A program made the translations under genes and the position numbers. A model generated the notes under the pieces. It saw only the letters and a list, made by a program, of their open reading frames with translations, searched no databases and had not been told where the DNA came from. A DNA stretch of 64,000 nt from Archangium violaceum (GTDB taxonomy: Bacteria; Myxococcota; Myxococcia; Myxococcales; Myxococcaceae): assembly GCF_016887565.1 (NCBI RefSeq), contig NZ_CP069396.1, positions 4,243,001-4,307,000 on the forward strand, read 5' to 3'. Below, one piece after another: positions 31,063 to 32,094 of this stretch; position 1 is the stretch's first letter; every line of letters begins with the position of its first letter.

Positions 31063-31165
31063 GCGACGGTGGAATCGCGCTCCTCCGTCACAAACGGCGA
31101 GAGGGGACTCCTTCCGCCTGAAAGTGTCCTCCCCCTCCCGGGGAGGACCCGTCAGGAGGAACAAC

Positions 31166-31423
31166 ATGCGAGCAGAGACCATCATCCGTGCGTGGAAGGA
31201 TCCTGCGTTCCGCGCGAGCCTCACCTCGGAGGAGCGGGCGGCGCTCCCCGAGCTTCCCTCCGGCAAGCCGATGACCGAGCTCGAGGAGGGCGAGCTGTCG
31301 GACGCCGTGGGTGGCGTGCGCGGCCGGCCCCGTGGGTGTCCCCCTCGTGAATTCACCGACGTGCCGTGCAGTGCGATCGATGCCTGTCCCAGCGCCCTGC
31401 TCTGCACGGTCGCCGCCTGTTGA
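31166..31423 (+). CDS. Mersacidin/lichenicidin-type class II lanthipeptide precursor
   Basis: 85-residue RiPP precursor. The leader has IIRAWKDPAFRASLTSEERA, LPSGKPMTELEEGELSDAV and the double-glycine GG at 49-50, matching the mersacidin/lichenicidin leader pattern (IIRSWKDP ... NPAG ... ELxxxxLxxxxGG). The 35-residue core has five Cys (58, 68, 74, 80, 85) and four Ser/Thr (Thr64, Ser69, Ser76, Thr81), so up to four (methyl)lanthionine rings. ATG 31166 has an excellent AGGAGG at 31154-31159, and a 7-bp hairpin CCTCCCC/GGGGAGG lies just upstream. No LanM synthetase, protease or transporter gene is in the window, so it must be modified in trans or be inactive. Confidence 0.78.
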   Translation: MRAETIIRAWKDPAFRASLTSEERAALPELPSGKPMTELEEGELSDAVGGVRGRPRGCPPREFTDVPCSAIDACPSALLCTVAAC

Positions 31424-31446
31424 CGGGCGGAGCGAGGCGGGGTGGC

Positions 31447-31820
31447 CTACTTGCCGTGCGGAGGAGGCTGGGATGGCCGCGTTGGTATCTGGATGGGGGT
31501 GGGCTCGGTGCCGGGGATGGACTCGGGCTCACGCCCCAGCTGCGAGACCCACGTGGCGCAGAGGAGGAGGCCCGTCACCAGCATCGCCCAGGCCAGCAGG
31601 TCCGAGGCCTTGAACGCGGTGAGCTCCTTCTCGGTCTCGCCGAGCAGCAGCAGTCCGGCACCGCCCGTGAGCACGGGCCCCCGCGGTCCCTCGTCCACCC
31701 GCCCCAGCGCGACCACGGTCGTGCCCAGATCGAGCCGCTCCTCGCCAGGACCAGGGCCCCGACGAGCATGAGACCCAGGCCCATGGGGAGCACCAGGGCC
31801 GTGGAGATGGCGTCGTTCAT
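31447..31820 (-). pseudogene. Small membrane protein, frameshifted
   Basis: Two frames join to one plausible protein. ATG 31820 opens MNDAISTALVLPMGLGLMLV, a first membrane helix; around 31738-31750 the frame must shift by one to continue EERLDLGTTVVALGRV, GAGLLLLGETEKELTA, FKASDLLAWAMLVTGLLLCA (second or third helix) and a Pro-rich tail ending PPPHGK. Neither frame alone has both parts. It runs convergent to the lanthipeptide precursor 24 bp from its stop. Family unknown; it may be a recent pseudogene or a sequencing indel. Confidence 0.5.
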
Positions 31821-31896
31821 GCGGTGTCTTGCTACGAGAGGTGGTACGCCGTGGCAACTGGAGAACCGCACTCTCGGTGCGAGCCCTGTGGCGCTC

Positions 31897-32094
31897 ATGG
31901 ACATGATGGCGGGCGTGTCCACCCGGCTGATGGTCACGCAACTGGTGGGCTTCACCATGTTCACGGTGCTGTCCCTCTTGAACCTGTTGCTCAACGCGGC
32001 GGACGCGGTGGAGGCGGCCGACCCCTCGCGTCAGGCCCGGATCGTGGTGGGCGCGCGGCGGTGGGCTGACGGGCGCCTCGACAACTCCCCGTGA
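31897..32094 (+). pseudogene. Histidine kinase fragment (N-box only)
   Basis: The frame reads RLMVTQLVGFTMFT, then VLSLLNLLLNAADAVEAADP and QARIVVGARRW before TGA 32092-32094. LNLLLNAADAV is the N-box of HATPase_c domains. The G-boxes that should follow are absent, and the upstream phosphoacceptor domain cannot be found, so only about 60 residues of a sensor kinase remain. It overlaps the beginning of the frameshifted membrane gene region and converges with the lipoprotein gene. Confidence 0.5.

Follow-up and report, generated by a model that had tools for sequence, protein, structure and literature searches.

Class II lanthipeptide systems in which precursors are dispersed are best known from marine cyanobacteria. 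In the prochlorosin/ProcM and SyncM systems of marine picocyanobacteria one LanM is accompanied by many precursors, many of which are encoded far from the enzyme, as described in the accessible parts of the relevant papers (PMC7268733, PMC12328550, PMC10783134). According to the available text of one study (PMC7268733), a survey that limited distance failed to pick up many prochlorosin precursors because they are encoded a long way from their LanM, and a CCG zinc site has been associated with ProcM-like promiscuity in the available portion of a further paper (PMC12328550). Within the genus Archangium, the A. violaceum class II cluster LanII-2B, expressed in refactored form, gave a product with two of four Ser/Thr dehydrated, two of three Cys cyclised and the third Cys left free, as given in the accessible part of the report (PMC9576775).

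The window, which is the whole 64-kb stretch of DNA analysed here (bases 4243001-4307000 of a genome of Archangium type that forms a single contig of 13.2 Mb and has Archangium as its closest named relatives), carries at 31166-31423 on the + strand an ATG open reading frame of 85 amino acids plus stop, with a Shine-Dalgarno sequence AGGAGG at 31154-31159 (+). The leader peptide, residues 1-50 (31166-31315, +), contains the motifs IIRAWKDP and LPSG...ELEEGELSDAVGG and ends in Gly-Gly at residues 49-50. The core peptide, residues 51-85 (31316-31420, +), has the sequence VRGRPRGCPPREFTDVPCSAIDACPSALLCTVAAC with five Cys (58, 68, 74, 80, 85), four Ser/Thr (T64, S69, S76, T81) and a [SN]AxDxCPS-type motif. 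All of these features, the ORF, its strong AGGAGG, the leader motifs and the five-Cys core with four Ser/Thr, had been reported in a preliminary description of the locus and were seen again. The assignment of the leader to the mersacidin/lichenicidin group made there is borne out by NCBIfam TIGR03898 ('mersacidin/lichenicidin family type 2 lantibiotic'), which matches residues 5-50 with a score of 68.4 bits (cut-off 23.5; E 3.8e-19). Since this score is far above the cut-off and orthologues occur in three further genomes, one of them 86% identical in A. lansinium MIWBW, the ORF is more than a chance reading frame and, by its leader family, encodes a true precursor of a class II lanthipeptide, with predicted modification.

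The core of mersacidin carries a CTLTxEC-like motif involved in lipid II binding. Such a motif is absent from the core of the 85-residue peptide, such that the earlier label of a mersacidin-type precursor holds for the leader alone and not for the core. The locus shares with the mersacidin/lichenicidin lantibiotics the leader family, the Gly-Gly end and a LicM2-like synthetase, but differs from them in that the precursor is unclustered and has a five-Cys core in which short, non-overlapping rings are predicted. All four core Ser/Thr are followed by a Cys at a distance of four or five residues, and Cys58 is the sole core Cys with no Ser/Thr donor ahead of it, the natural reading of this arrangement being four short rings and one free N-terminal Cys.

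Domain searches found no LanM or LanC domain in the 64-kb window, the nearest LanM being 79 kb from the ORF, and no close homologue of the exporter of the LanM-A cluster (see below) was found in the window at E <= 1e-60, which agrees with the earlier statements that neither lanM nor lanT is encoded nearby. On the - strand at 31447-31994 there is a possible small membrane protein spread over two frames, an 81-residue piece of which had no relative in six related genomes; the frameshift ascribed to this gene in the preliminary description is not confirmed. LanM genes do occur elsewhere in the genome, with four DUF4135 (LanM) and six LANC domain matches, and a family search (E <= 2.4e-8, the next match having E 0.09) identified nine precursors including the one in the window. 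Two of these lie between a gene for a C39-peptidase ABC exporter and the gene for one LanM, designated LanM-A, at about 7.97 Mb and 3.7 Mb from the window precursor, while one adjoins another LanM at 4.35 Mb. The remaining six, including the window precursor, are orphans at least 79 kb from each of the four LanMs. The preliminary description had proposed an orphan gene whose synthetase might act in trans, to be abandoned if the genome held no LanM and the core pattern was not conserved; orphan status was observed, LanMs are present, two of them with related precursors alongside, the Cys pattern is conserved among orthologues, and with several LanMs in the genome an enzyme acting in trans is plausible.

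LanM-A (genome positions 7971623-7974847) has DUF4135 and LANC domains with WCHG and CHG motifs, and among its relatives of solved structure LicM2 ranks first (E 1.4e-145) and CylM second; the genome encodes three further LanM-like proteins. The cluster is ordered HlyD, C39 ABC exporter, lanA, lanA, lanM, with both adjacent precursors having the leader type of the window precursor, so that a family-matched LanM is present. Across seven genomes the leader of the window precursor is 58-74% identical to those of 14 precursors near LanM-A and 46-57% identical to those of eight near other LanMs. In A. lansinium (G001:C1:5433000-5446500, L155) LanM-A has four precursors at 10 kb or less, with ten more scattered genome-wide. 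In A. violaceum Cb vi76 (G004) LanM-A is the single LanM found, there is no orphan precursor, and the precursor beside LanM-A has a core with exactly four Ser/Thr and three Cys. Because LanM-A is the only LanM found in that genome and the adjacent core has this composition, the LanII-2B cluster is probably the LanM-A cluster of this strain. If this match is right, enzymes of the LanM-A type are active and able to leave a Cys free. LanII-2B thus resembles the system described here in being class II, in coming from the same genus, in probably being an orthologous LanM-A cluster and in having a free Cys in its product, but its precursor is clustered beside the LanM and has another core motif with three Cys rather than five.

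The association between LanM-A and orphan precursors extends across the family. A search of 96 genomes yielded 121 precursors, of which 80 have a LanM at 15 kb or less and 41 are orphan, an orphan being defined as having no LanM within 15 kb or as lying on a contig without a LanM, and this orphan count is pushed up by fragmented assemblies and can only have been raised by the use of 62 LanM matches from which weaker or partial LanM-like sequences were mostly left out (all 121 precursor matches being counted). When LanM-A genomes were defined as those with a LanM at least 65% identical to LanM-A (n=11), they accounted for 38 of the 41 orphans; an orphan was present in 10 of these 11 genomes compared with 3 of the remaining 25 genomes in which precursors occur (Fisher p 1e-5, with shared ancestry ignored). 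Among assemblies of one or two contigs, those with any orphans were G000 (the genome of the window, 6), G001 (A. lansinium, 10), G002 (2), G003 (1), G064 (2) and G065 (1).

Including the window copy there are four orthologues, the others being in A. lansinium, G002 and G003. DNA homology between them covers a unit of about 340 bp, running from about GTCACA to just beyond the stop codon (about 31085-31426, +) and comprising a promoter-like element, an untranslated leader and the ORF, with unrelated flanks beyond both edges; in the window the unit is set at 31087-31426 (+). The unit lies in three unrelated contexts, one common to A. lansinium and G002 and one each in the window genome and G003, and A. 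violaceum Cb vi76 has an empty site with the A. lansinium/G002 context and a gap of about 10 nt where the unit would be. By eye, three of the four copies have GTCAC close to each end, and since this recurrence is missing from the window copy no claim of insertion repeats is made. The earlier suggestion that a cluster had eroded at this locus is less well supported and is not the leading idea, since the orthologues stand alone in all three contexts and there is therefore no sign of a former cluster. Among the four orthologues pn/ps was 0.18-0.35 for the leader and 0.27-0.54 for the core, by which comparison both are under purifying selection. The five Cys and T64, S76 and T81 are kept in all four, with S69 kept in three and replaced by Asn in G002, where four rings would fit less well given that all five Cys are retained. 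In the wider set of 52 precursors, the core motif [SN]AxDxCPS...C was found in nine and [ST]CGI-type cores in 15, with both Ser of the former motif kept in eight of its nine bearers. Scattered precursors of A. lansinium (G001:C1:10175352-10175871 and G001:C1:7069666) have damaged leaders or Cys-poor cores and are possibly decaying copies.

The precursors also share an upstream element. At the window precursor this consists of GTCACA (31087-31092, +), a -35-like half common to LanM-A-type precursors and mostly 63-82 nt ahead of the ATG, and ACTCC (31107-31111, +), which lies 14 nt after GTCACA in the comparison of upstream regions and is -10-like. Out of 44 LanM-A-type precursors, whether clustered or orphan, 28 match GTCACA-N14-ACTCC at 10 or more of its 11 bases (all 11 in 15 precursors, 10 in 13) and the others at nine (11 precursors) or eight (five), a count that is not independent of the motif because the motif was initially spotted by eye in the same sequences; matches of at least 10 bases arose in 0.7% of mononucleotide shuffles. 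None of the eight precursors of other LanMs, set apart from the 52 by leader and neighbour in the analyst's own grouping, exceeded eight of the 11 bases. In an independent count, the exact pattern GTCACA-N13-15-ACTCC occurs 19, 18 and 21 times in the window genome, A. lansinium and G005 respectively, with the reversed pattern occurring 5, 8 and 3 times, and 10 of the 58 exact sites belong to precursors. Of the 30 that came with loci and were inspected, many stand before other genes, several encoding secreted or lipoprotein-like products. Because sites also stand before non-precursor genes, the element looks like a promoter common to precursors and other genes, and its position before secreted and lipoprotein-like genes suggests a wider regulon under a putative sigma factor. 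Base pairing of ACTCC with the Shine-Dalgarno sequence is conceivable too, a reading ranked below that of a promoter as the same element precedes unrelated genes. The promoter signature of ECF41 sigma factors is TGTCACA-N16-CGTC in the part of the study available (PMC3426412); the GTCACA half and the spacing are similar, but the second half at the window precursor is CTCC rather than CGTC, such that the full signature was not found there.

The best explanation, and one held to be likely, is that the window precursor serves as a substrate in a class II system of one enzyme and many substrates, with LanM-A modifying the peptide in trans. The precursor would be expressed from its own promoter-like element and its leader read by the single LanM-A encoded 3.7 Mb away, which would dehydrate T64, S69, S76 and T81 and join them in short rings with Cys 68, 74, 80 and 85 respectively (i+4, i+5, i+4, i+4). 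Cys58 would stay free because no core Ser/Thr lies ahead of it. The C39-peptidase exporter beside LanM-A would then cleave behind Gly-Gly and carry the product out of the cell, where it would probably act as an antibacterial or in signalling.

The main evidence against LanM-A as the enzyme comes from G003, a single-contig genome with an intact, constrained orthologue. There the exporter is kept (91% identical) and the HlyD and exporter genes stand in the same neighbourhood as in relatives (G003:C1:11180000-11199000, L248, 5591-7952), but the interval from the exporter to the next conserved gene is without the lanA-lanM block, and LanM-A was not found elsewhere in that genome. Either LanM-A was lost recently or another LanM serves the peptide, which would otherwise be stranded in G003. 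The latter would extend to the window genome if one of its other LanMs modified the precursor, such as that 79 kb away (genome positions 4353797-4356910), which is the nearest and is of the same general type, and G003 does have other LanMs beside its orthologue; this is judged unlikely, as the LanM 79 kb away is already flanked by a precursor, with a leader 46% identical to that of the window precursor and without the common upstream element. A similarly low probability is given to a stranded precursor, an evolutionary leftover whose modification has ceased, for which speak the missing local biosynthesis genes, the loss or non-acquisition of the unit in A. violaceum Cb vi76, the absence of the presumed partner enzyme in G003 and the truncated appearance of some other scattered precursors, but an intact ORF with a strong Shine-Dalgarno sequence and an intact upstream element, together with pn/ps values that stay below 1 for both leader and core among the four genomes, argue against decay.

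The replacement of one putative donor Ser in an orthologue set in which every Cys is kept, and the odd number of Cys, would also be in keeping with Cys that serve mainly in disulfides or metal binding, the product then not being a fully ringed lanthipeptide. This is considered very improbable given that the leader falls within the lanthipeptide family model and that eight of the nine bearers of the [SN]AxDxCPS-type motif have kept its two Ser. Trans modification by LanM-A, the preferred reading, has also to accommodate the three other LanM-like proteins of the window genome, the lack of any orphan in A. violaceum Cb vi76 with its LanM-A, and the ordinary CHG zinc site of this enzyme, which was found in all six LanM-A proteins examined and differs from the CCG site that goes with ProcM-type promiscuity.

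The layout is thus prochlorosin-like, while the leader and enzyme are lichenicidin-like. The dispersed arrangement of ProcM-type systems is seen in the window genome, with one LanM-A and six orphan precursors, on which LanM-A would be expected to act. ProcM and SyncM systems have Nif11-type leaders and a CCG zinc site, whereas here the leader is of TIGR03898 type, the zinc site is CHG, core motifs of two kinds recur and the precursors have a promoter-like element in common; no Nif11 model was among the profile matches of the window precursor and the NHLP leader model scored 12.8 bits against a cut-off of 50.9. Tentatively, LanM-A may take scattered stand-alone lanA units of about 340 bp that would have been moved round the genome by Archangium and related genera under one common promoter. 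This would constitute a dispersed lanthipeptide regulon outside the cyanobacteria, in which the cores are not hypervariable but carry conserved 'warheads'. A literature search that covered few subscription-journal papers found no paper on dispersed myxobacterial lanthipeptide precursors. Were LanM-A to accept the orphans, the myxobacteria, which are predatory soil bacteria, would provide another lanthipeptide system with many dispersed substrates, the second of its kind but with an ordinary zinc site, and with it a test of the need for a CCG site in broad substrate range. Relocating units and the existence of a natural LanM-A-minus strain in G003 make the origin and upkeep of such libraries testable. 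For genome mining, restriction to the surroundings of LanM genes misses six of the nine precursors in the window genome and, at the 15 kb used here, 41 of 121 in the family.

A possible hairpin in the 5′ untranslated region is formed by the inverted repeat GTCCTCCCC...GGGGAGGAC (31126-31148, +), with a folding z of -3.3 for the window precursor and weak values family-wide. An inverted repeat is present at the same place in other precursors, just ahead of the Shine-Dalgarno sequence, with its sequence changing between orthologues and modest folding support. The first folding set held 38 precursors, six irregular ones having been dropped, and RNAalifold on a MAFFT alignment of 35 of these gave no pairs conserved family-wide; no Rfam match was found at the precursor leaders of eight loci. 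Single-sequence folding of the 31 of 44 precursors with a recognisable element gave a mean z of -1.39 (nine below -2), compared with -0.46 (two below -2) for 12 other element-bearing genes, one of 13 non-precursor sites from the 30 inspected having been dropped as too short (p 0.04), and on these values the hairpin may be taken as a lead only.
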